Assembly: GCF_023983475.1 (NCBI RefSeq)
Contig: NZ_CP092713.1
Location: 1,468,348 to 1,532,347 of the forward strand
Length of the DNA stretch: 64,000 nt
DNA from: Aliivibrio fischeri ATCC 7744 = JCM 18803 = DSM 507
Lineage (GTDB): Bacteria; Pseudomonadota; Gammaproteobacteria; Enterobacterales; Vibrionaceae
Direction: 5' to 3'
Shown: piece after piece, positions 2,494 to 51,660 of the stretch
Position numbering within the stretch: position 1 is the stretch's first letter
Layout: each line of letters opens with the position of its first letter
Made by a program: the position numbers and the translations under genes
The notes under the pieces: model-generated
Seen by the model: only the letters and a program-made list of their open reading frames with translations
Database searches by the model: none
Told to the model about the DNA's origin: nothing

Positions 2494-3594
2494 ATGCTCA
2501 AAAACAATCTTATACGATTTAAAGATATAACGTTTAACCCAAAAACAAACCAAATAAATAAAAACGATTGCACGATAAAGCTGACTCATAGTGAATCAAA
2601 AATTTTAAAGTTACTTTTAACCTCACCAAATAAAGTTTTCTCAAAAGATGATATTTTTACTTATGTTTGGGAAGGAACAGCAAGCAATATAGGTGTTGTA
2701 CCACAGACGATTTCAGTTTTACGCAAAAAATTACATTATAATGAAATCTATCTAATTGAAACAGTTAAGAAAAAAGGATACAAAGCAGATGTAAATGGTA
2801 CTTTTTTCGAAAAAAGAAAGATAAATAAGAATCATGTGCTTTTATCGGTTGCTATTATTATCTCTTTTTGTTTATTTCTGCTCGTTTTTGAGAAGCATAT
2901 ATCAAATGCAAAAAACAATAATGACATAAAATTAGAAGAGTTAATGCCAAATGTATTTCAAACAAGTGATTCGTTACCATTTATTTTTGATCCGACCGTT
3001 TTAAGAAGTAACACAACTTATTACATTAACCGACAATCAAATAACTTAAACATATCTACTTGTCGACAAATTGGTACACAGTGTGATTTAACATACAATA
3101 GAATTATATTCTTACAAAACAATGAATCAAATACAGTTATTACTCAATATATTCAAGATGTTAAGTTCACAGAAACAATGTATAAAGATGAGTTAAATAC
3201 AAATCCTATTCGATTTAATTATGCAGCCCGAATAGGCGTTAAAAGTGAAAATGATAATTATTACAGTGGACAAATAATTGCCAATTACAGCTTAAAGCAA
3301 AGAAATAATAAATACGTTTATAACAAAGTATCCATTGTTATTGATGAAACTGGATTTGCAGGACAATGCTCATACACTAGGGAACCAGAAAAGCCTTTCC
3401 TTGAATGTAATGAAGGTGACTGTACAAGCTATGTTGGATCTATATCTGATCCTAAAAAAGCGGTTGCGTATAAAAATTTATTTCAATACCCATCAACAGG
3501 GTTGAATATTTTACTGTTTCCGATCGATGAAGATGTATCCTTATTTTACAATACAGAATCAGGATTATCTTACTTAGTTTATCAGTATAACTAA
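2494..3594 (+). CDS. ToxR-like transmembrane winged-helix regulator (paralogue 1)
   Basis: A 366-residue one-component regulator. Residues 1-100 are an OmpR/PhoB-type winged helix with the recognition region GVVPQTISVLRKKL and wing IETVKKKGYKA. One transmembrane segment lies near 113-132, and a ~230-residue periplasmic domain follows, containing ISTCRQIGTQC and further cysteines (C-S-Y-T, LECNEGDC) that could form disulfides. Paralogues lie at 20168 and 27173 with the same architecture. It is a single-gene unit with a terminator directly behind. No ToxS-like partner gene adjoins it. Signal and target genes are unknown; function beyond membrane-bound transcription control is not assigned. Confidence 0.82.
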   Translation: MLKNNLIRFKDITFNPKTNQINKNDCTIKLTHSESKILKLLLTSPNKVFSKDDIFTYVWEGTASNIGVVPQTISVLRKKLHYNEIYLIETVKKKGYKADVNGTFFEKRKINKNHVLLSVAIIISFCLFLLVFEKHISNAKNNNDIKLEELMPNVFQTSDSLPFIFDPTVLRSNTTYYINRQSNNLNISTCRQIGTQCDLTYNRIIFLQNNESNTVITQYIQDVKFTETMYKDELNTNPIRFNYAARIGVKSENDNYYSGQIIANYSLKQRNNKYVYNKVSIVIDETGFAGQCSYTREPEKPFLECNEGDCTSYVGSISDPKKAVAYKNLFQYPSTGLNILLFPIDEDVSLFYNTESGLSYLVYQYN

Positions 3595-20167: not shown

Positions 20168-21331
20168 ATGCTTAAACGAATCAAAATTGAGCACCGCGAT
20201 TTCATATTGAACATCGCGGATAACTCGATTTCCAAAAAAAATAAAATAATTAAATTAACCGAAACAGAATGTAAAATTCTCACGTTACTTCTCTTAGCGC
20301 CAAAACAAGTATTCAGTAAAGAAGAAATTTTACGCTACGCTTGGGATCAAGAATTAAATAACTATATTAGTGTTGTTCCACAAGCTATCTCTGTGTTACG
20401 AAAAAAATTATACCGTTATGGTATTGATGCTATAGAAACAGTGAAAGGAAAAGGATATAAAGCAACACCAAGCAGAAAACGTTGCTTATCTAAACGAAAG
20501 AAAAAATGTTGTATTACAATCGCAATACTTACGTGTAGCATAACCACATATGGTTTTTATATTCAAAAGCCAGATGAACAACCAAAGATTGCTCAATCAC
20601 TGCTTAAAGTCGATGATAATATTTATCAAACTGCAAACTCAGCCCCTATCATAGTAAACCCTGAAATACTTAATGAAAATATTAAGTACTTTATACATGT
20701 ACAAAGAAAAGCGATAAGTTTATCTGCTTGTAAAATAACCAATCAAAAATGCACAAGTATATATAACAAAATACTCTTCATTGATGATGAAAATAGCAAA
20801 ATCGATATGAATAAACTGATCAGTGACGTGTCTTTTAAATTCGATAAACCAAAGGGAGAACCTGTTTTTTATCATTCAAATAAACACAGTAACTACAAAG
20901 TTTCAAGTAGCATAAACTTAAGAGCTTTAAATAATGAATCTTATATAGGACATGTATTTGTTAATTATGATGTAAGTCAAATAGATAAAACTCATTACAA
21001 AGCAGAATTATCTGCCTATGTAAAAGAATCTGGTTATATTGGTAGCTTTGGATACTCTGTTAACCTTAATGCAGAAACAAAAGAAATCACAAATCAATCA
21101 AATAAACATTATATTTCTAAAATAAGTAGAGATATGAAATACAGTGGCATTAAGTCAGGTCGACAACAATTTGGAACCATAAAAGATCAAAGTCAACTGT
21201 ATGCTTTTCCTCTTATGAAAAATGGAACTCATTCCACTTACTTTAATCATATTTACCCAATGGGGAATGGAGTGAAGTATATTTATATGGAAAGTGCAAA
21301 CATCGGCTACTTAACCTTTTTCTATAAATAA
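20168..21331 (+). CDS. ToxR-like transmembrane winged-helix regulator (paralogue 2)
   Basis: A 387-residue protein with an N-terminal winged helix (~1-100; SVVPQAISVLRKKL, then IETVKGKGYKA), one membrane segment near 116-134 and a ~250-residue periplasmic domain. The periplasmic part shares CKITNQKC..YNKI, NYDV and ESGYIGSFGYS with the paralogue at 27173, and more distantly with that at 2494. It is a single-gene unit between glpC and a convergent chemoreceptor gene, closed by a perfect hairpin. No co-encoded ToxS-type protein. Signal unknown. Confidence 0.82.
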   Translation: MLKRIKIEHRDFILNIADNSISKKNKIIKLTETECKILTLLLLAPKQVFSKEEILRYAWDQELNNYISVVPQAISVLRKKLYRYGIDAIETVKGKGYKATPSRKRCLSKRKKKCCITIAILTCSITTYGFYIQKPDEQPKIAQSLLKVDDNIYQTANSAPIIVNPEILNENIKYFIHVQRKAISLSACKITNQKCTSIYNKILFIDDENSKIDMNKLISDVSFKFDKPKGEPVFYHSNKHSNYKVSSSINLRALNNESYIGHVFVNYDVSQIDKTHYKAELSAYVKESGYIGSFGYSVNLNAETKEITNQSNKHYISKISRDMKYSGIKSGRQQFGTIKDQSQLYAFPLMKNGTHSTYFNHIYPMGNGVKYIYMESANIGYLTFFYK

Positions 21332-27172: not shown

Positions 27173-28294
27173 ATGTCTAATAAAATTAAATTTCATAATT
27201 TCACATTACTGATAAATGAAAAAAAGATCATCACAAAAAATAATAAGGAAATAAAATTAAACTCAGTAGAACGAAATATTCTATCTTTACTGATACAAAA
27301 TCCTACCGTTATCTTTACTAAAGAGGAGATTCATAACCACTCATGGTGTAAAGAAATTAAATGTCATTCATCAGTCGTTCCGCAAGCTATCTCCTTACTA
27401 CGCAAGAAGTTAAGTATGCATGACTTAGAACCAATTGAAACCGTAAAAGGTAAAGGGTACAAAGCGGCGCATCTTGTTCAAGATCAAAGTATGGGAATGT
27501 ATTCTGCTTTGGTTTTATTTTTAAGCATAATATCTATATTAATATTAGAATACCCAGTTTCTAACTTAGGAAATGAGAAACTGACATCATTTAAATTCAA
27601 AAAAATAAACAATAATATAGTAACTACATCTGCATCAAATAAATTCGATACTAGCAAGTTGAAATTAGAAGATAATGTTAAATATTTTATAAATAATCAA
27701 AATAATTTCATCTCAATTTCAGCATGTAAGATTAAAAAAAATATATGTACTAACGTTTATAATGCCATTTATTTTAAAAAAGAATCAACACCAATTAAGA
27801 TGGCAGATTTAATATCTAATGTTAAATTTGATGATGATATGGATTTATTATTAATGAGAAAAGATAAATTAACTTCGTTATCAGCAGAAATACAATTAAG
27901 ATCGTTAAATAACAAAAAATATAATGGAGAGTTATTTATAAACTTTGACTTAGAAAAAACAAACAACAATGATTATTTTTCAAAAAAGACAACTTATATC
28001 AAAGAGTCTGGCTATTCTGGAGGGTTTGGCTATGCCTCAGTCAATAAAATAACCCCAATAAAGAATAAAAATCATCATAAATATTTAATAAAAAAAATTG
28101 ATGACGATAATCTGCTTTCACTACGATTTCAATTTGGTATGGTAAAGAATAGCAAAATGACTTATGCATACAATCTGCTATCAGGCCCTAGAGAAAAACA
28201 ATCTTATAGTTATTCATACCCTATATCTAAAAACATAAATTATTATTTTAATGATGAGATGAACATTTCATACATTGCTTATACGCATACATAA
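27173..28294 (+). CDS. ToxR-like transmembrane winged-helix regulator (paralogue 3)
   Basis: A 373-residue protein with the same build as those at 2494 and 20168: winged helix (SVVPQAISLLRKKL; IETVKGKGYKA), membrane segment near 107-126, and periplasmic domain with CKIKKNIC..YNAI and ESGYSGGFGYA. Near its end it shares the pattern RFQFGMVKNS...YPISKNINYYF with paralogue 2. AGGGATTACA precedes the ATG. It is a single-gene unit with its own terminator, between the secreted hydrolase and glpD. Ligand and regulon unknown. Confidence 0.82.
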   Translation: MSNKIKFHNFTLLINEKKIITKNNKEIKLNSVERNILSLLIQNPTVIFTKEEIHNHSWCKEIKCHSSVVPQAISLLRKKLSMHDLEPIETVKGKGYKAAHLVQDQSMGMYSALVLFLSIISILILEYPVSNLGNEKLTSFKFKKINNNIVTTSASNKFDTSKLKLEDNVKYFINNQNNFISISACKIKKNICTNVYNAIYFKKESTPIKMADLISNVKFDDDMDLLLMRKDKLTSLSAEIQLRSLNNKKYNGELFINFDLEKTNNNDYFSKKTTYIKESGYSGGFGYASVNKITPIKNKNHHKYLIKKIDDDNLLSLRFQFGMVKNSKMTYAYNLLSGPREKQSYSYSYPISKNINYYFNDEMNISYIAYTHT

Positions 28295-32584: not shown

Positions 32585-33440
32585 TTATGCTTCAGCAGTT
32601 TTATTATCTTCATCTTTATCACATTGATTCGGAATCGTACAACCTTGCCCTGCCGTAGGTAGATAAGCACCAATCATTTTTGGGTATGCCCAACCACCAA
32701 AACATGCACCAGCAATAGGAGCTAAGATTGGAATAATAAAGTACGGAATTTCTTTCGCTCCAGTTAAGGCATAATCCCATCCAGCTAGATATGCAAATAA
32801 TTTTGGTCCGAAATCACGAGCAGGGTTCATTGCAAAACCAGTTAGCGGCCCAAGCGAACCACCAATAACAGCGATTAAAATACCAATAAGTAATGGGTTC
32901 ATTGGTCCACGAGAAGCACCATTATGCTCATCTCCTAGTGCCAAAATTCCAAACATAAGCACAGCAGTAATTACAAATTCAACAGCAAAAGCACCAAGTA
33001 TCGACAAAGAGGGATGAGGATAAGTTGAGAAGATACCTGCAGTGGATAATGCGGCTTCACTGCTTCTTAGGAAACCATTTGCGATTTCATAATCCGCAAA
33101 TAAATTACTGTATAGAGAGTAAACTAATGCTGCTGAGCAAAAAGCACCAAGCATTTGTGAGACGATATAAGGAAGCACTTTCGCTTTATCAAAACCATGA
33201 AAAGCAAGCAAGTGCAATAGTAACTGCTGGGTTGATATGAGCACCTGATACCCCAGCAGTACAATAAATAGCGATAGCAACACCAAAGCCCCATATAATA
33301 CTGACTTCCCATTGACCAAATTCAGCTCCAGTTAACACTAAAGCGGCAACACAGCCAACCCCAAAAAAGATCAGTAACCCTGTTCCAATGAACTCTGCAA
33401 GGCATTCACCAAACAAGGTATGTTGTTTGTTTTGTCTCAT
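32585..33440 (-). pseudogene. glpF: Glycerol facilitator, interrupted by a one-base frameshift
   Basis: Aquaglyceroporin of the MIP family for glycerol entry. The first part (33440 to about 33203) gives MRQNKQHTLFGECLAEFIGT through AGVSGAHINPAVTIALACF and then stops. The remainder continues in the next frame as HGFDKAKVLPYIVSQMLGAF through GFAMNPARDFGPKLFAYLAG to 32585. Both NPA boxes are present. The total of 856 bases is one more than a multiple of three, and the shift maps to a run of four A at 33200-33203 (T on the coding strand). The ATG at 33440 has a good ribosome site (AAAGGAATC). A real mutation or a sequencing error is possible. Confidence 0.85.
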
Positions 33441-33826: not shown

Positions 33827-34223
33827 ATGAACATATTAATAGTAAGTAATTACTTTCTTATCAAAGATGTAGCAAATAAAGTACTGAGTGAATTAAATGA
33901 TGTACATGAGACAAAGACAATGACAGTCTCAAATTTTCATAAACTCACAGAAAAAGATATGCATTAAGATCCCAGTGCCAGATCTCGTTGTTTATGATTT
34001 AGACAGTGAAAAGTACACTATCGAAGATAAAATGGAACTCCTCAGTGAGAAGTCTTTCAATCCATTCACCGCAGCTCAAAATGTCATCTTAATGGGATCA
34101 TTCGAAAAATTATTAGAAATGAAACAATATAATTTTCCTAAGCAAACAATACTAGAGAAGCCTTTTTCAATAAAAACCTTAAAAAATACAGTAAAGAAAA
34201 ATATTACCCTATACCATAATTAA
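33827..34223 (+). pseudogene. Single-domain response-regulator receiver, frameshifted
   Basis: The first frame gives MNILIVSNYFLIKDVANKVL to LTEKDMH and stops at 33965-33967. The next frame continues as VPDLVVYDLDSEKYTIEDK to LEKPFSIKTLKNTVKKN and ends at 34223. Together they form a receiver-like fold: beta-1 hydrophobic strand, candidate Asp in VYDLD, and Lys in EKPFS. Total length is one base over a multiple of three. The break maps near the A run at 33951-33955, and a corrected product would be 131 residues, normal for a receiver. It is followed after 18 bases by a hybrid histidine kinase on the same strand. Confidence 0.65.
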
Positions 34224-34241: not shown

Positions 34242-36452
34242 ATGCTTTTGAAAAACAAATTCTTTGTTGCTCTTGCTGGTAGCATAATTGCCTATTCGGT
34301 CTTTATTTCTTTTACTTCATATAAGATAATTACTTCAAACCAAGAAGAAATAAAAACAATTGCTGCAAATGCTGAAAATAAATACTTGCATGAAAGTGCA
34401 TTACGTTACTCATTTGACATAAGCAATTCATTAAACCGTAAAATGATTGAGATAAAAAACATATCTAATCGATATGTAGAATTAATCAAAAACATTAGCT
34501 CAATAAAATCTAGAGATATTTTAGACACTGCTGTAGCAGAACTTAGGAAATACTCAACAAGTGTCGTCATTAGCGACACTAAAATAAAGTTTAACAAAGA
34601 AGAAACATACACGACTCAACAATATAAAATAAATGAAAGCACCTATTTAATATTTCAGACGGATGTAACCCAACTTCTAAACACATTAAAAAACAAAAAT
34701 TATTACTCAGATTTTGTTACTATTATTATTGATAAGGACATGAATGTTGTCACTGATAACTTAGATAGTAAAAATTATTTATCTCTATATAAACAAAAAC
34801 TTAAAGATATAACAAAGCTGGATGAAATTTCATATGATTTAATGATTGCAATGCGAAAAATTGAAAGAAAAGAAACATGGGATTCAGAAATAAAAATAAA
34901 CGGTGAAGATCATATCATTGCAATTCAACCAGTAAAAGACCTCCCATGGAGCATAGTGACTCTTATAAAGAAAAAGCTCTCTGTTAATTATGACCAAGAC
35001 CTTACCAATAAAATTGATGACAACTACATCCTTTTTAGCAATAAGTTATTTAATACTATAATATTAGTTACCTTATTCACCCTTATAACATCAATTTTAA
35101 TCACCTATTATGTGAAAGGTCCATTAATATTATTTAACGAATGGATAAAAGAAATCCAAAGAGGCAATTATGAATATAATAACCCTTTACTATATAGAAA
35201 AGATGAGCTAGGAACATTAGCAAGAAATGTATCTTTAATGGCACAAGATATCTCAATTTTAGTTAATAATTTAGAAAGTAAGATAACGGAAAGAACAAAA
35301 TTACTTTTACAATCTAAAGAACAAGCCGAAAAAGCCAATATTAACAAATCAAAATTCATAGCTAATATTTCTCATGAATTAAGAACCCCATTAAATGCTA
35401 TATTAGGTCTAAGTTTATATCTTATTGAAAAAGAAGAAAATAGTGAGAAAAAGAAAACATTAGAGACATTAAATAAAGCAGGACAAGGTTTATTAGAAAT
35501 GGTAAATGACATTCTAGATTTAAGTAAAATTGAAGCCGACAAAATCATTGCTCATAATAAACCAAACTCGATTGATAATATCATTTCGGATATTATTGAT
35601 ATTACACAATTTCAATCAAAATCAAAGAACATCCAAATTCAATACAAAAAAACGGAATTTCATCATTTAAATATAGATAAAAAATATATAAACAAGATAA
35701 TAATGAATATCTTAAGTAATGCCATCAAGTTTACTGAAGACGGAGGGAAAATAGATATTGATGTTAAGTATGAAAACTCAACACCCACAACAACCGATCT
35801 TATCATGGTATTTACAGATAATGGACGAGGTATTGAAGAAAAAGATTTAGACCGTATATTTAATCCATTTGAGCAACTCTATGATAAAGATAGAGAATAT
35901 GGTACTGGCCTTGGCTTGTTTATCACAAAGAAAATCATAGAAGATATGAATGGCAACATTTCAATTAAAAGCAAGGTTGGAATAGGAACATCTATTTGTA
36001 TTAAATTAAAAGATGTTGAAATAATAAAATCTAAATTGACCGAACAATACCATACAATGCGTCGAAATGTGACTAAGTTTACAGGAACAAAAAGAATTGC
36101 AATTATTGATGATATTGAGTTCAACCGCGAAGTACTAAAAAAGAAAGTTGAAGATTATGGATTTGAAATCATCGAGGCAATACATGGTCAAGACATGCTA
36201 GAGAAACTTGAATCAGCAACAGATTTACCTGATATTATTTTTACTGATATCAAAATGCCAATTATGGATGGCATAGAACTGACCAAACACATCAAGTCAT
36301 CAGAACGAACACATCATATACCTGTCATAGCAATTACGGCGCATGGTATGGTTCATGAAGAGCTTGAGATTAAAAAACATTGTGACGGTTATCTTGCAAA
36401 ACCAATTGAAAATAAAGAATTAGATTCAATAATAACAAAATTTTTTAAATAG
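34242..36452 (+). CDS. Hybrid sensor histidine kinase (HisKA-HATPase-REC)
   Basis: A 736-residue inner-membrane kinase. TM1 is at ~8-26. An extracytoplasmic sensor of ~240 residues follows, probably of the Cache type (WSIVTLIKKKLSVNY near its end). TM2 is near 272-290, then HAMP, then HisKA with phosphorylated His378 in ISHELRTPLNAILG. The ATPase has N-box NILSNAIKFT and DNGRGI, and the C-terminal receiver has Asp669 in FTDIKMP and CDGYLAKPI. Kinases with a terminal receiver usually signal through an HPt; one is encoded at 49343. AAAGGAAAAG precedes the ATG. The upstream receiver gene may be its partner. Confidence 0.92.
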   Translation: MLLKNKFFVALAGSIIAYSVFISFTSYKIITSNQEEIKTIAANAENKYLHESALRYSFDISNSLNRKMIEIKNISNRYVELIKNISSIKSRDILDTAVAELRKYSTSVVISDTKIKFNKEETYTTQQYKINESTYLIFQTDVTQLLNTLKNKNYYSDFVTIIIDKDMNVVTDNLDSKNYLSLYKQKLKDITKLDEISYDLMIAMRKIERKETWDSEIKINGEDHIIAIQPVKDLPWSIVTLIKKKLSVNYDQDLTNKIDDNYILFSNKLFNTIILVTLFTLITSILITYYVKGPLILFNEWIKEIQRGNYEYNNPLLYRKDELGTLARNVSLMAQDISILVNNLESKITERTKLLLQSKEQAEKANINKSKFIANISHELRTPLNAILGLSLYLIEKEENSEKKKTLETLNKAGQGLLEMVNDILDLSKIEADKIIAHNKPNSIDNIISDIIDITQFQSKSKNIQIQYKKTEFHHLNIDKKYINKIIMNILSNAIKFTEDGGKIDIDVKYENSTPTTTDLIMVFTDNGRGIEEKDLDRIFNPFEQLYDKDREYGTGLGLFITKKIIEDMNGNISIKSKVGIGTSICIKLKDVEIIKSKLTEQYHTMRRNVTKFTGTKRIAIIDDIEFNREVLKKKVEDYGFEIIEAIHGQDMLEKLESATDLPDIIFTDIKMPIMDGIELTKHIKSSERTHHIPVIAITAHGMVHEELEIKKHCDGYLAKPIENKELDSIITKFFK

Positions 36453-36705
36453 GCTCACTTGAGCCTATTTTTATTTTGTTTAAAAATAAATAAGTATTAT
36501 TATTTTCTAAAAATAGTCCATTATCATCTTGATAAAATGCAATCATTGACAAATTACTAAAAAAACCATCACAAGTTAAAAAATTTGATTCATTTGAATA
36601 TAATTCTGAACTTAACAAAACATACTTATTATCTTTTATATGATTTAAAGAAAATAAGCACATATGACTTGAAAAATCGTTCAAACCATAGGTTGCTTTA
36701 TTCAC
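36445..36705 (-). CDS. Small probable periplasmic ORF, second part of a ToxS-like partner
   Basis: An 86-residue frame starting at GTG 36705, overlapping the preceding small gene by four bases (GTGA). The sequence is beta-rich (LNHIKDNKYVLLSSELY, NNNTYLFLNKI) with two cysteines and no membrane helix or signal peptide, so alone it would be cytoplasmic. One added A in the run just upstream would join it to the preceding membrane ORF, giving a ~139-residue protein with one N-terminal membrane helix and a periplasmic domain, the topology of ToxS or VtrC. No family was recognised by sequence. Confidence 0.5.
   Translation of the reverse strand: MNKATYGLNDFSSHMCLFSLNHIKDNKYVLLSSELYSNESNFLTCDGFFSNLSMIAFYQDDNGLFLENNNTYLFLNKIKIGSSEPI
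36447..36470. terminator. Bidirectional terminator after the hybrid kinase
   Basis: AAATAGGCTC (36447-36456) pairs with GAGCCTATTT (36461-36470) across a 4-nt loop, followed by TTATTTTG. The kinase stop codon lies in the left arm. Confidence 0.85.
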
Positions 36706-36860
36706 GATGATTTTTTATAATCAATAATAGTAACCCTATATTTACATTTATCTCCAGACAATTCAGTTAATGTACCTACATAGTTTTCTTTAACCTCTTT
36801 TGTTATTAGGAATAATCCAGCAATAAAAAAAATGGTTAATATAAGAGAATTATTAACCAT
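36702..36860 (-). CDS. Small membrane-anchored ORF downstream of a ToxR-like gene
   Basis: A 52-residue frame from ATG 36860 (MVNNSLILTIFFIAGLFLIT). It has one membrane helix at ~4-20 followed by a short periplasmic part with GTLTELSGDKCKYRV. It starts one base after the stop of the ToxR-like gene (36862), so translation is coupled. Its stop follows a run of six A, and the next ORF starts at once in the -1 frame. It is probably the N-terminal part of a ToxS/VtrC-like partner, either truncated or expressed by frameshifting. Confidence 0.5.
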   Translation of the reverse strand: MVNNSLILTIFFIAGLFLITKEVKENYVGTLTELSGDKCKYRVTIIDYKKSS

Positions 36861-36861
36861 T

Positions 36862-37497
36862 TCACTTTTCTGTATAAACAACTTTTTCATCAAAAGTAGA
36901 TAGTACATAGCTCTTACTCTTTGAAAAATTATCCTTAATCGTTGAACAATCCAATTTAGTTGTTGATAATATAATATTATCATCAGAGCAACTTAACTTA
37001 ACAAAATTATCATTCATTGTTTTAAAATTAGGGAAAAACACAGTTCTATTTACTAAATAAATAGAAATCATTACTGAAATTAGTAATAATAAAACAATTT
37101 CTTTATTAAACACTTTATCATTGAAGTCGAATATAAAGGTATTGACCTCTTTTTCTGATTTTATTTCACTAGATTTAAACCAGTTATCTACAAATGTATA
37201 ATTTTGATTAATTTCTATTGAGTAGCCTTCTCCTCTTTGTGATTTTATTTTAAATACATGTTCCAATTGCTTTAAATGTCGCCTTGTCTTAGATATTAAT
37301 TGTATTAAGTTTGAGTTGTCTTTTTTATCATCATTCCATATTCTACTTATTAAATCATCATTTGCTTGATTTACTCCTGGCAACTCTAATAAACAAATAA
37401 AGAGCTTGAATTCATATTTAGTTAAATACACATTCAAACTCATGTTATCTGTCAGCAATCTCTCTTTCTTGTTTACATGCACATCTATATTATTCAC
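36862..37497 (-). CDS. ToxR/CadC-like transmembrane winged-helix regulator at the end of the Tad locus
   Basis: A 211-residue regulator. The winged helix is at 1-105 (LTKYEFKLFICLLELPG; LIQLISKTRRHLKQLE; SQRGEGYSIE). A linker leads to a membrane segment near 137-155 (VLLLLISVMISIYLV), and a short periplasmic tail of ~55 residues carries two cysteines. It differs clearly from the three long ToxR-like paralogues, having a shorter tail and another recognition helix. It is followed directly by small membrane or periplasmic ORFs, as in ToxR-ToxS, TcpP-TcpH and VtrA-VtrC pairs. It lies behind the Tad operon on the same strand, separated by a likely terminator. Confidence 0.8.
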   Translation of the reverse strand: MNNIDVHVNKKERLLTDNMSLNVYLTKYEFKLFICLLELPGVNQANDDLISRIWNDDKKDNSNLIQLISKTRRHLKQLEHVFKIKSQRGEGYSIEINQNYTFVDNWFKSSEIKSEKEVNTFIFDFNDKVFNKEIVLLLLISVMISIYLVNRTVFFPNFKTMNDNFVKLSCSDDNIILSTTKLDCSTIKDNFSKSKSYVLSTFDEKVVYTEK

Positions 37498-37528
37498 AAC
37501 AAACTATTAATTTTAGATAAAACAAAAC

Positions 37529-37592
37529 AGAATAGAGCAACAATAAAACTATAGAATATTACATTCTAAAATTTCATTATTACTCTATTCTG
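37529..37592 (-). terminator. Likely terminator at the end of the Tad operon
   Basis: CAGAATAGAG (37529-37538) can pair with CTCTATTCTG (37583-37592), with an inner TAGAAT/ATTCTA stem. On the minus strand it is followed by TTTTGTTTTATC. It separates ompA from the downstream regulator. Confidence 0.55.
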
Positions 37593-37617: not shown

Positions 37618-38313
37618 TTAAATTTTCTCAATTTCTACTCGTCGGTTCTTCTCTCGTCCATTTGCAGTTTTATTTGTTTTAATAGGCTCTCGCTCACCTT
37701 TAGTAACCACAGAAAACTGATTAGGTTCAGCTCCTTGTTGGACTAAGTATTGATACACAATATTCGCTCTTTTTAAACCCAGGTCGTAGTTATAGGTAGT
37801 GCTGCCTTTTGAATCAGTATGACCTTCAACTTTCAATTTAATGTCCTTCTCGCCCATTTTCGAGTAAAGCTTATCAAGCACATACTCTGAGCGCTTAGTT
37901 AATGTTGATTTATCAAAATTAAAATAGACACGAGCTAATACTGCATTTTTATTTACTAATGCATCAGATGTATTACTGATTAAAAATTCAGAACACGTTG
38001 ATTCAACATCAATGCTATCAAGCTCACGATTAACAAATGCACCTTTAGGTTCAATTGGTTCAAGATGCTGAATTTGATAAAAACCACCTTCGTTAAGCGA
38101 AAGTCTTTTTCCTTCAGCCACATTCACTTCTTTTTGGTACTCTTTGTTTGCAGAACCACAATAAATTAAAACTGATTGCTCTGATTTTTTTATATCTTCC
38201 ACTTTCTCATTAGCATTAGCATTAGCATTAGCATTAGCATTAGCATTAGCATTAGCATTAGCATTAAAAGATAACCCTAAAACAGCAGCAACTATAATTA
38301 AAATTTTATACAT
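37618..38313 (-). CDS. OmpA-family outer-membrane/peptidoglycan-binding protein of the Tad locus
   Basis: A 231-residue secreted protein. A signal peptide (MYKILIIVAAVLGLSFNA) runs directly into an Asn-Ala repeat of about 20 residues encoded by a hexanucleotide repeat. A mid region with cysteines follows, then a C-terminal OmpA domain (ARVYFNFDKSTLTKRSEYVL, KVEGHTDSKGSTTYN, NGREKNRRVEI) that binds peptidoglycan. It is the last gene of the Tad cluster; OmpA-like genes often close Vibrio tad loci. It may anchor the apparatus at the cell wall. Confidence 0.85.
   Translation of the reverse strand: MYKILIIVAAVLGLSFNANANANANANANANANANEKVEDIKKSEQSVLIYCGSANKEYQKEVNVAEGKRLSLNEGGFYQIQHLEPIEPKGAFVNRELDSIDVESTCSEFLISNTSDALVNKNAVLARVYFNFDKSTLTKRSEYVLDKLYSKMGEKDIKLKVEGHTDSKGSTTYNYDLGLKRANIVYQYLVQQGAEPNQFSVVTKGEREPIKTNKTANGREKNRRVEIEKI
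38209..38266 (-). repeat. Hexanucleotide tandem repeat inside ompA
   Basis: Nine perfect copies of ATTAGC (GCTAAT on the coding strand) occupy 38209-38262, followed by ATTA. Each copy encodes Ala-Asn. A change in copy number keeps the frame and only alters the length of the linker after the signal peptide. Confidence 0.95.
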
Positions 38314-48787: not shown

Positions 48788-49000
48788 TTAAGAGCCAGTA
48801 TCATTTGCCGATGTAATATTATCTGAAATTGTACCAATTGCATCAATTAAGGCTTGTTGAAGTGTACCATTAAACATCAATAAGATAATAGCTGAAATAG
48901 CTACACCAATAATTGCATATTCAATAGCTGTAACGCCACGCTCATCATTTTTAAAGTTTTGGATTGCGTTCTTAGAAAATTCAAAAAACTTAACTAACAT
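48788..49000 (-). CDS. flp: Flp-type pilin
   Basis: A 70-residue prepilin, first gene of the Tad operon. A 22-residue basic leader ends in ERG. The mature start VTAIEYAIIGVAISAIILL has Glu at +5 and Tyr at +6, the Flp signature, followed by the long hydrophobic assembly helix and a short polar C-terminus. AAGG precedes the ATG. It is the only pilin-like gene seen upstream of tadV here. Confidence 0.95.
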   Translation of the reverse strand: MLVKFFEFSKNAIQNFKNDERGVTAIEYAIIGVAISAIILLMFNGTLQQALIDAIGTISDNITSANDTGS

Positions 49001-49342: not shown

Positions 49343-49663
49343 TTAGGCTAAAAATTGTTCATCGTTTACAACGGTTTGATACTCCCGATGCAATACTTCT
49401 TTAACTAATTTGAATCTCATTACTTGATGATAATGTTCAAGTCTCATACAGACTTCATGCATTCTATTTAACCCTGCGTAACTCGATATCCCTTTTATTG
49501 CATGAATCGTATCTTGGACACCGTCAGTTTCAATTTCCTTCAGCTCTTTCTCTATTCCTTCTACTATCATTCTTTTAAAGTAATGAGCTTCTTCACTGGA
49601 ATGAGATGTTGAAGTTCCATTTTCAAAGTCTTTAACATTGAAAGTTTTCAGTTTCTGATTCAT
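49343..49663 (-). CDS. Stand-alone histidine phosphotransfer (HPt) protein
   Basis: A 106-residue helical protein. The HPt motif is DTIHAIKGISSYAGLNRM, with phosphorylated His54 and the following Lys-Gly. Such proteins shuttle phosphate between the receiver of a hybrid kinase and a response regulator. It overlaps the end of the REC-EAL-like gene by 32 bases and ends before a strong terminator. No kinase is in this operon; the hybrid kinase at 34242 is a candidate donor (inference). Confidence 0.87.
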   Translation of the reverse strand: MNQKLKTFNVKDFENGTSTSHSSEEAHYFKRMIVEGIEKELKEIETDGVQDTIHAIKGISSYAGLNRMHEVCMRLEHYHQVMRFKLVKEVLHREYQTVVNDEQFLA

Positions 49664-50780
49664 AAGCGTTAATCCATTTAGCTAGTTTATCATTTCTCAT
49701 TTCCGATGTGATGAAATCACCTTGTAAACATTCAAAACCATAATCTAATGATGCTTGTTGCTGATTTACTTTTTGAATGTTGCCTATAATGATAGGAATA
49801 TCTTTACCATGCATTTCTTTAAATCTCTTGATATCCTCAAATACATTTTTCTTATATTCAAAACAAATATTAGAGAGAGCTATTCCTTGCTCTAATAGCT
49901 TGCACTGCATATCATTTTCAACCAATTCAATGGATATCCGAACTCCATCTGCGAGTAATGTCTCCAGATTTTCTGTTAACTTATCAAGTAACACAACATC
50001 GTCTGAAAACTCAACAACCACAATGATCTTATCCTTCGTTTCCTTTTCAATTTTATCAAAAACATGATTAATAAAATCATCATCGCATATTAAAATATCC
50101 TTCACATTTATACGAAACGTATAACGATAATCAGAGAATTTACTCTTGATATCACGCTCAAGCAGTGTGAACATCAAGTTCATAAACCCAACAGTATTTT
50201 TCATATCATTAATGTCTGGTAGAAACACACTTTCGGCAATAGCACTTGCCTTTTGATTTTTCCAATGAGGAGAAACCTGAACGCCATCAATTCGATGAGA
50301 GCTGAAATTAACTATTGGTTGATAATATAATTCAACAAGATCATTTTGCTTTACATCTTCAAACAACATCTTGCGATCTTCAATTCTGTTCACATTAAAA
50401 AAATCAATGGTCGAAATGACTTCTTCAGCTGAAATGGGTTTATTGTAAGAATTAACAATCGTAACCCCACTGACTTCAGCAAGGTCCATTACTTTTTCCA
50501 AAATATTCGCTTTTACAGATGACACAATAGCCACTGGTATGTGGTAATTATTTTCAGATAGCACTTTAATTAAATCTAAACCATCCCCATTAGGCATCAT
50601 TATATCTGTTATAATTCCGTGTATTATATTCTTTTTATTTAAAATATTTACCACATCATTACAGCTTTTTGCTTCTATGATATTAACTTGATCATGAAAA
50701 TTCTTCTTTATAATAAATGAAACCACTTTCCTTGAAAAATCAACATCATCTACCAATATTACATTTATTTTACTTTTCAT
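49632..50780 (-). CDS. Response regulator with receiver and degenerate EAL domain
   Basis: A 382-residue protein from ATG 50780. The receiver (~1-125) has acidic VILVDDVDFSRKV, phospho-acceptor Asp59 in ITDIMMPNGDG and Lys in NKPIS. An EAL-fold domain follows (LVELYYQPIV), but the EAL motif reads GVQVSPHW and the DDFG-type motif is lost, so phosphodiesterase activity is unlikely. It probably acts as a phosphorylation-dependent binding protein. It overlaps the upstream XRE gene by 11 bases and the HPt gene by 32. Confidence 0.85.
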   Translation of the reverse strand: MKSKINVILVDDVDFSRKVVSFIIKKNFHDQVNIIEAKSCNDVVNILNKKNIIHGIITDIMMPNGDGLDLIKVLSENNYHIPVAIVSSVKANILEKVMDLAEVSGVTIVNSYNKPISAEEVISTIDFFNVNRIEDRKMLFEDVKQNDLVELYYQPIVNFSSHRIDGVQVSPHWKNQKASAIAESVFLPDINDMKNTVGFMNLMFTLLERDIKSKFSDYRYTFRINVKDILICDDDFINHVFDKIEKETKDKIIVVVEFSDDVVLLDKLTENLETLLADGVRISIELVENDMQCKLLEQGIALSNICFEYKKNVFEDIKRFKEMHGKDIPIIIGNIQKVNQQQASLDYGFECLQGDFITSEMRNDKLAKWINAYESETENFQC

Positions 50781-51660
50781 ATTCCATTCTTCTAAAATCA
50801 ACAAGAAAATGTAATGCATCTTTTGAGTGATTAATATTTAACTTAGTTACTTCAGATAATTTATAGTTTTTATCATCAATAAATTCATTAAATTTAATCT
50901 TAGAATTTAATTTAACAAATAACTTATGTATGTTTTTTTCACCTGAAATAAAATACAGTTTTGAATCTATATTTGGTATATCTAAAAAGTTAGTCAAAAT
51001 TCTGCCTAATATATATTTAAGGCTATCATTAGTTGACGCATAAAATGATATTATTAATGGATTATTTGATGCGTAATTTTTTATTTTTGTATAATCTATT
51101 TCATTACACATTAAATCTTTTAAAAAATCTGGTGATACATACAGCGTAATAGAATGTGCAATTAATCGAGATTTATACTTACAAATGATAATCTCAGCAT
51201 TTAGTTTTGCCATTAATGATTCTATTGATTTTTTTATACTATTTTTTCCAGTGGATTTAATTAACTGCTTAAAATAATAGTCACTATCAATTATTAATTC
51301 CATTTCTTCAAGAACAGAATCTAAACCTGATAACGTATTTCGATTTAATACATGCGTAACAAAATCACTATTTCCATAGGTATAGTAATCAATATCGAAA
51401 TAATTCTCATTATCTATTTTTGGTAATTCTATATTTGAATCAATGATTTCATCTATAGGATCGACACCTAATAACTGATATATCTCAATTTGTTTTTTGA
51501 ACGGAGGAATAGTGATCCCTCTTTCCCAGCGACTAAATGTTACGTTATCTAGTTTTTTTAACTTCGAAGAATTATGGCTCAATAAGTCCACCATAATCTC
51601 TTGAGTAACGCCGCTTTTCTCTCTATATTTTTTTAAAATTTGTTCAAAAAGATACTTCAT
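50770..51660 (-). CDS. XRE-type HTH protein with uncharacterised C-terminal domain
   Basis: A 296-residue protein. The N-terminal HTH (~8-68) contains SGVTQEIMVDLLSHNSS and FSRWERGITIPP. The remaining ~220 residues, alpha/beta with many Ile/Tyr, are of no family I recognise. Its C-terminal part has LHFLVDFRRMEYE. It is the first gene of an operon with the REC-EAL-like and HPt genes, next to the Tad promoter. It could be the operon's output regulator. Confidence 0.72.
   Translation of the reverse strand: MKYLFEQILKKYREKSGVTQEIMVDLLSHNSSKLKKLDNVTFSRWERGITIPPFKKQIEIYQLLGVDPIDEIIDSNIELPKIDNENYFDIDYYTYGNSDFVTHVLNRNTLSGLDSVLEEMELIIDSDYYFKQLIKSTGKNSIKKSIESLMAKLNAEIIICKYKSRLIAHSITLYVSPDFLKDLMCNEIDYTKIKNYASNNPLIISFYASTNDSLKYILGRILTNFLDIPNIDSKLYFISGEKNIHKLFVKLNSKIKFNEFIDDKNYKLSEVTKLNINHSKDALHFLVDFRRMEYEK

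Follow-up and report, generated by a model that had tools for sequence, protein, structure and literature searches.

What does the membrane-bound winged-helix regulator encoded behind the Tad pilus locus of Aliivibrio fischeri ATCC 7744 work with, and does it act on the pilus beside it? The question arises from a 64,000-nucleotide stretch of this genome (NZ_CP092713.1, positions 1,468,348 to 1,532,347; hereafter the window), where an initial annotation had proposed a ToxR/ToxS- or VtrA/VtrC-like cassette made of one regulator and two small open reading frames (ORFs). Its gene order, its match to a winged helix-turn-helix (wHTH) domain and its hydrophobic helices have stood; the two small ORFs, however, proved to be one split partner gene. 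By its sequence the cassette is new within the co-component superfamily, and it stands linked to Tad pili. That the two genes form a co-component pair is very probable, and the statement as a whole, namely that this two-gene cassette is a VtrA/VtrC-type co-component sensor for Tad whose partner is split here, is rather probable. The cassette consists of the following pieces.

36862..37497, minus strand: membrane winged-helix regulator, GTG start, 211 residues (Trans_reg_C, E 1.6e-9)
36702..36860, minus strand: partner gene, first piece, 52 residues; encodes the membrane helix and the initial strands of the predicted barrel
36445..36705, minus strand: partner gene, second piece, in another frame, 86 residues; remaining strands of the predicted barrel

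The regulator and its partner gene

The position and length first given for the regulator are correct. Its DNA-binding domain is an N-terminal wHTH of the OmpR/CadC type (residues 1-100), with no receiver domain, according to both the Pfam match and the predicted model. It is followed by a linker, a predicted transmembrane segment at about 131-152 and a short predicted periplasmic tail. Hydropathy reaches 2.1 at residues 134-152, the model places a helix at 132-151, and the 59 residues beyond the hydropathy peak would lie on the periplasmic side. All 11 A. fischeri-type rows share Cys170 and Cys184 of the tail, and the regulators of Vibrio sp. AND4 and G121 carry two cysteines at 195 and 210; a cysteine pair in the periplasmic part of the regulator is reported for all pairs of the co-component superfamily but VtrA (Kinch et al. 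2022, PMC9214523). In a single pairwise comparison with the allele of genome G003, the ratio of nonsynonymous to synonymous substitution rates (dN/dS) was 0.11 for the DNA-binding part and 0.58, a fast rate, outside it.

The partner was at first taken for two genes: a 52-residue ORF whose ATG lies one base past the regulator and which is hydrophobic at residues 1-19, and an 86-residue ORF overlapping it through GTGA. Both descriptions are accurate, whereas the count of genes is not, as a single 137-residue ORF of G003 (L002:2138-2551) spans both. The protein database returned five clusters of relatives of the G003 partner, four of them from A. fischeri, all 136-153 residues long and covered to 96-100%, in a search in which proteins under about 75 residues could not appear. 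The nearest homologue cluster, P0006 (16 member sequences), is intact and, judged by eye, agrees with the two window pieces at all but a few residues. Regulator P0010 and partner P0004 lie on contigs of equal size (465,558), in keeping with a linked pair. In view of the single ORF of G003 and the full-length homologues, the two window ORFs are, on sequence grounds, a single partner gene with a change of frame within a short A-run. Compared with G003 separately, the two pieces gave dN/dS values of 0.16 and 0.44 (again one pairwise comparison), which indicate constraint on each, and an in-frame upstream ATG at 36888-36890, which would overlap the regulator, is a candidate start of the partner.

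Two separate functional proteins, as first proposed, are scarcely credible. The GTGA stop/start overlap would permit coupled translation; all relatives seen, however, have the partner as one full-length gene, the break interrupts the predicted barrel, and the second piece has neither a hydrophobic signal nor a membrane segment. Lacking an export signal, it could not form a periplasmic barrel by itself, and with its partner gene split the regulator switch is probably impaired in the window genome. An 86-residue entry, P0026, was considered as a second split copy and set aside, being a Vibrio-type fragment on a 588-base contig and hence no evidence.

Predicted fold and class assignment

For the intact partner relative P0001 (the window copy being split), an N-terminal transmembrane helix and an eight-stranded lipocalin-like barrel are predicted. 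The barrel and the topology of the pair thus have the standing of predictions. In its build the pair likely resembles the bile sensors VtrA/VtrC and ToxR/ToxS. The partner belongs to no Pfam family, and a Protein Data Bank sequence search with its profile gave three weak matches (best E 0.037), none of them a relative. In agreement with the arrangement that defines the superfamily, the partner gene adjoins or overlaps the regulator downstream, on the same strand. The divergence between the two alleles, with a conserved DNA-binding part and a fast remainder of the regulator, fits the fast-evolving cassettes described by Kinch et al. 2022 (PMC9214523).

Is the frame break real?

A split partner may also be produced by an assembly error in a homopolymer run, in which case the window strain has an intact pair and the sensor explanation would stand. 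We regard this as quite possible, somewhat short of an even chance. The frame change sits in an A-run, which points to either an assembly or a slippage event, the nearest homologue cluster is intact, and glpF and a receiver-like gene nearby are split as well. Against an error it can be held that the three window-only breaks all fall within about 3.5 kb, with none elsewhere in roughly 33 kb read against G003, and that glpF is broken outside any plain homopolymer. In addition, a short duplication apparently interrupts the regulator of a separate pair at C2:623 kb, which is atypical of read errors. The clustering of the breaks in glpF, the receiver-like gene and the partner mildly favours real decay.

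The glycerol channel gene glpF (32585-33440, minus strand) lies in two frames in the window and is a single 284-residue gene in G004, G009 and G011. The receiver-like gene of 131 residues (33827-34223, plus strand) is intact in G004 and G005, and lies in two frames in the window and, differently, in G003. In G003, the Tad genes at the tadE, tadF, tadZ and rcpA positions (L019, G003:C2:248000-267000) are in two frames each, the window copies being intact; this may reflect decay, phase variation or assembly error.

Distribution among relatives

The samples comprised 14 genomes of the genus, including the window genome and G003, and 329 genomes of the family. Within the genus six genomes have regulator matches at E 1e-3, but full-length ones are confined to the window genome and G003 (66% identity, E 5.6e-89). 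The initial annotation had called for syntenic pairs in other Aliivibrio; one was found in G003, and within the genus the pair was seen only there and in the window genome. Near-full-length regulators at E 1e-9 occur in 5 of the 329 family genomes: the same two and three of the genus Vibrio, among them Vibrio sp. AND4 and Vibrio sagamiensis. When the G003 regulator was the query (E 1e-6), seven genomes matched, the two additional ones (G131 and G248, both Vibrio-genus) mainly over the DNA-binding part; of the window proteins, only the regulator matched the 19-kb stretches of these two.

The cassette stands behind a Tad locus in all five genomes with full-length relatives, which represent two genera. 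Each of the three Vibrio-genus genomes has two overlaps here, one of the regulator start with the gene before it, the other of the partner start with the end of the regulator. The gene that precedes the cassette was found in exactly these 3 of the 329 genomes (threshold E 1e-15). By eye it resembles OmpA, but its AND4 copy has no Pfam match at E 1e-3. The Vibrio and A. fischeri partners share 17-20% aligned identity, with nine invariant columns in seven rows; the low E-values of the Vibrio partners in the profile search come from a profile that already included Vibrio rows. Two short peptide patterns, scanned once against a collection of 84,980 species, picked out three loci, two from Vibrio and one from Gracilibacillus, the last matching over residues 2-92 only.

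Apart from the window genome and G003, 6 of 12 genus genomes have a TadG relative, and the main TadG region was fetched from G004, G005, G009, G011 and G013, leaving G002 aside. In G003, G009 and G011, which have a second TadG-bearing locus (40-41% TadG identity), no such pair occurs in the stretches of it that were read.

Tad pilus and its putative control

The Tad locus named in the initial annotation is confirmed next to the cassette, and contains a Flp pilin, a prepilin peptidase, RcpC, a secretin, T2SSE, two T2SSF, TadF and an OmpA-domain protein. A TadE-like protein falls just below the Pfam cut-off, and the protein in the TadG position matches no Pfam family at E 1e-3. The names rcpB, tadZ, tadD and tadG are given by position only, after the tad operon of A. 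salmonicida (PMC6420764).

38353..49000, minus strand: Tad pilus locus, in the order flp, tadV, rcpC, rcpA, rcpB, tadZ, tadA-G; likely target of the cassette
48788..49000, minus strand: Flp pilin gene (Flp_Fap, 1.3e-12), the region upstream of which would be the likely regulated promoter
37618..38313, minus strand: OmpA-domain protein (OmpA, 3.5e-22), final Tad-locus gene ahead of the cassette
37527..37591, no strand: near-perfect inverted repeat of 65 bases between the OmpA-domain gene and the regulator, single genomic copy
36447..36470, no strand: terminator-like hairpin where the partner gene meets the convergent kinase gene (one found, shuffles mean 0.3)

The nearest obvious target of the regulator is this Tad operon with its Flp pilin at 48788-49000, and the chances that the cassette controls it appear evenly balanced. 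By the mechanism proposed, the partner would fold as a lipocalin-like barrel in the periplasm, as its model predicts, and the short regulator tail, with its C-terminal hairpin and two cysteines, would dock on it. The C-terminal strand of the regulator might complete the barrel, by analogy with VtrA/VtrC, ToxR/ToxS (PMC10624426) and TcpP/TcpH (PMC11323476). A hydrophobic periplasmic signal bound in the barrel would then steady the tail and protect the regulator from proteolysis, and the DNA-binding domain would switch Tad (flp) transcription from the membrane. The window strain would have no such barrel in its periplasm, leaving the regulator without a partner and probably unstable or deaf.

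The pair may instead be a real co-component system with targets elsewhere, such as quorum sensing, motility or envelope genes, the place behind Tad being a tolerant insertion slot; we consider this somewhat unlikely. It would be in keeping with HbtR/HbtC of V. fischeri, described as TcpP/TcpH homologues, which are reported to leave expression of the tcp pilus homologues unchanged and to repress litR (PMC7468203). The slot itself is variable: the interval from the OmpA-like gene to the convergent kinase holds a PAP2-family membrane protein in G004, a look-alike of it in G005, only about 70 bases with a hairpin in G009 and G011, and other genes in G013. Yet the pair follows a Tad locus in every genome with a full-length relative, in two genera, and this linkage, together with the overlap with the preceding gene in the three Vibrio-genus genomes, argues for a shared function.

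Several observations weigh against a barrel-bearing sensor of Tad. On the structural side, the regulator tail is modelled with low confidence (predicted local distance difference test 46-64 by blocks), so that beyond a C-terminal hairpin at 197-210 the interface is unseen. The Foldseek search with the partner model gave weak E-values (best 6.8e-3) and ranked apolipoprotein M and a plant fibrillin between ToxS and VtrC; the lower ToxS score is tied with those of other lipocalins. The partner and ToxS profiles showed no similarity (hhalign probability 1.3%), the ToxS side holding two rows. A Vibrio partner used as query found 3 of the 329 genomes and missed the A. fischeri partners of the window genome and G003, so that partner homology across the genera leans on position, the aligned identity and the profile. 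As to Tad itself, the cassette is absent from the Tad regions of G004, G005, G009, G011 and G013, which have the same locus, and no Tad gene matched within the 19 kb fetched around the G131 and G248 regulators. A strong hairpin parts the cassette from the Tad operon in A. fischeri, the upstream regions of flp and the regulator share only AT-rich 11-base words (up to one mismatch) and no common operator, and the tad genes of A. salmonicida answer to LitR and RpoQ (PMC6420764).

A search for a ToxR-box pattern in the flp and regulator upstream regions gave none. The 65-base inverted repeat, whose intergenic stretch is 95% identical in G003, is likely the terminator of the Tad operon and possibly an operator; its single copy in the genome rejects a mobile repeat.

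On one side of the Tad locus lies a hybrid histidine kinase (34242-36452, plus strand), on the other an Hpt protein and a receiver-EAL protein (49343-50819, minus strand), a setting that suggests a phosphorelay and a cyclic di-GMP link to the pilus. Elsewhere in the window, three related proteins of 366-387 residues combine a ToxR-like winged helix with a long C-terminal part (2494-3594, 20168-21331 and 27173-28294, plus strand), and a protein resembling them is found at C2:1422938.

Should the favoured reading of a VtrA/VtrC-type sensor for Tad be correct, a co-component receptor would be tied to the Tad pilus in the species group of a model squid symbiont, where gene removal and colonisation assays are established, and Tad pili would gain a testable signal input. 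The superfamily, known chiefly from enteric pathogens, would gain a candidate pair, with HbtR/HbtC as a possible earlier case from a symbiont. The cassette also shows how this family conceals itself, its partner falling outside the Pfam families and passing for two small ORFs in the window assembly. Among the leading results of literature searches, mostly unopened, no paper tying a membrane co-component pair to Tad was found. A wider idea, unlikely as it is, would be that Tad operons carry an exchangeable sensor slot, in which lineage-own co-component pairs would directly set pilus output, their barrel alleles diversifying to read various lipids of host or envelope, and a shift of frame within the partner A-run would turn the receptor off in some strains.

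Comparison with known systems

ToxR/ToxS (8ALO, 8U2F) is encoded separately in this genome, at C1:856 kb, and a separate ToxS is present in 14 of 14 genomes of the genus. Identity of the partner with ToxS was rejected, as none of the Pfam matches of 16 partner rows, taken up to E 1, was to ToxS (PF17323). A further co-component-like pair at C1:1188 kb (L008:1465-2792), a wHTH regulator of 285 residues overlapping a single-pass protein of 159 residues, also occurs in G013; the comparison of the partner profile with it (probability 0.7%) is uninformative, with two rows only.

TcpP/TcpH and HbtR/HbtC resemble the window pair in joining a regulator to a single-pass partner, and TcpP/TcpH control a pilus. 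TcpH is reported to shield TcpP from proteolysis by direct interaction (PMC11323476), and has been predicted, with low confidence, to be a lipocalin (PMC9214523). TcpP matches the window regulator only weakly in sequence (DNA-binding domain, E 0.55).

The species group and the architecture might suggest that the window pair is the strain's version of hbtRC, the TcpP/TcpH homologues of V. fischeri ES114. This is very unlikely, as the genome has a pair at C2:623 kb as well, with a partner showing 96-98% identity in G002 and G003. An intact G002 regulator of that type matches the TcpP DNA-binding domain at E 5.3e-4 (ToxR better, 1.6e-5), against 0.55 for the window regulator. The C2:623 kb pair thus appears, on this indirect comparison, likelier than the window pair to be the hbtRC of PMC7468203. 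Its regulator (L083:842-1632, minus strand; L085-L090) ends right past the membrane helix in G002, G003 and G011, with no periplasmic domain; relatives in G004, G005 and G013 keep that domain, and the copy of the window genome appears interrupted.

VtrA/VtrC of Vibrio parahaemolyticus (5KEV, 5KEW, 8DML) shares 13-15% identity over aligned residues with the window pair. VtrA lacks the cysteine pair of ToxR (PMC10624426), whereas the window regulator has two cysteines, and VtrA/VtrC serves type III secretion system 2, the window pair standing at a Tad locus instead. The search of Kinch et al. 2022 began with 18 pathogen genomes, and its main text makes no mention of Aliivibrio or Tad (PMC9214523). 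With PsaE/PsaF, YqeI/YqeJ, GrvA/FidL and other pairs described there, the window pair has in common the two-gene cassette, the regulator built of a wHTH and a transmembrane helix, the lipocalin-like partner and fast evolution.

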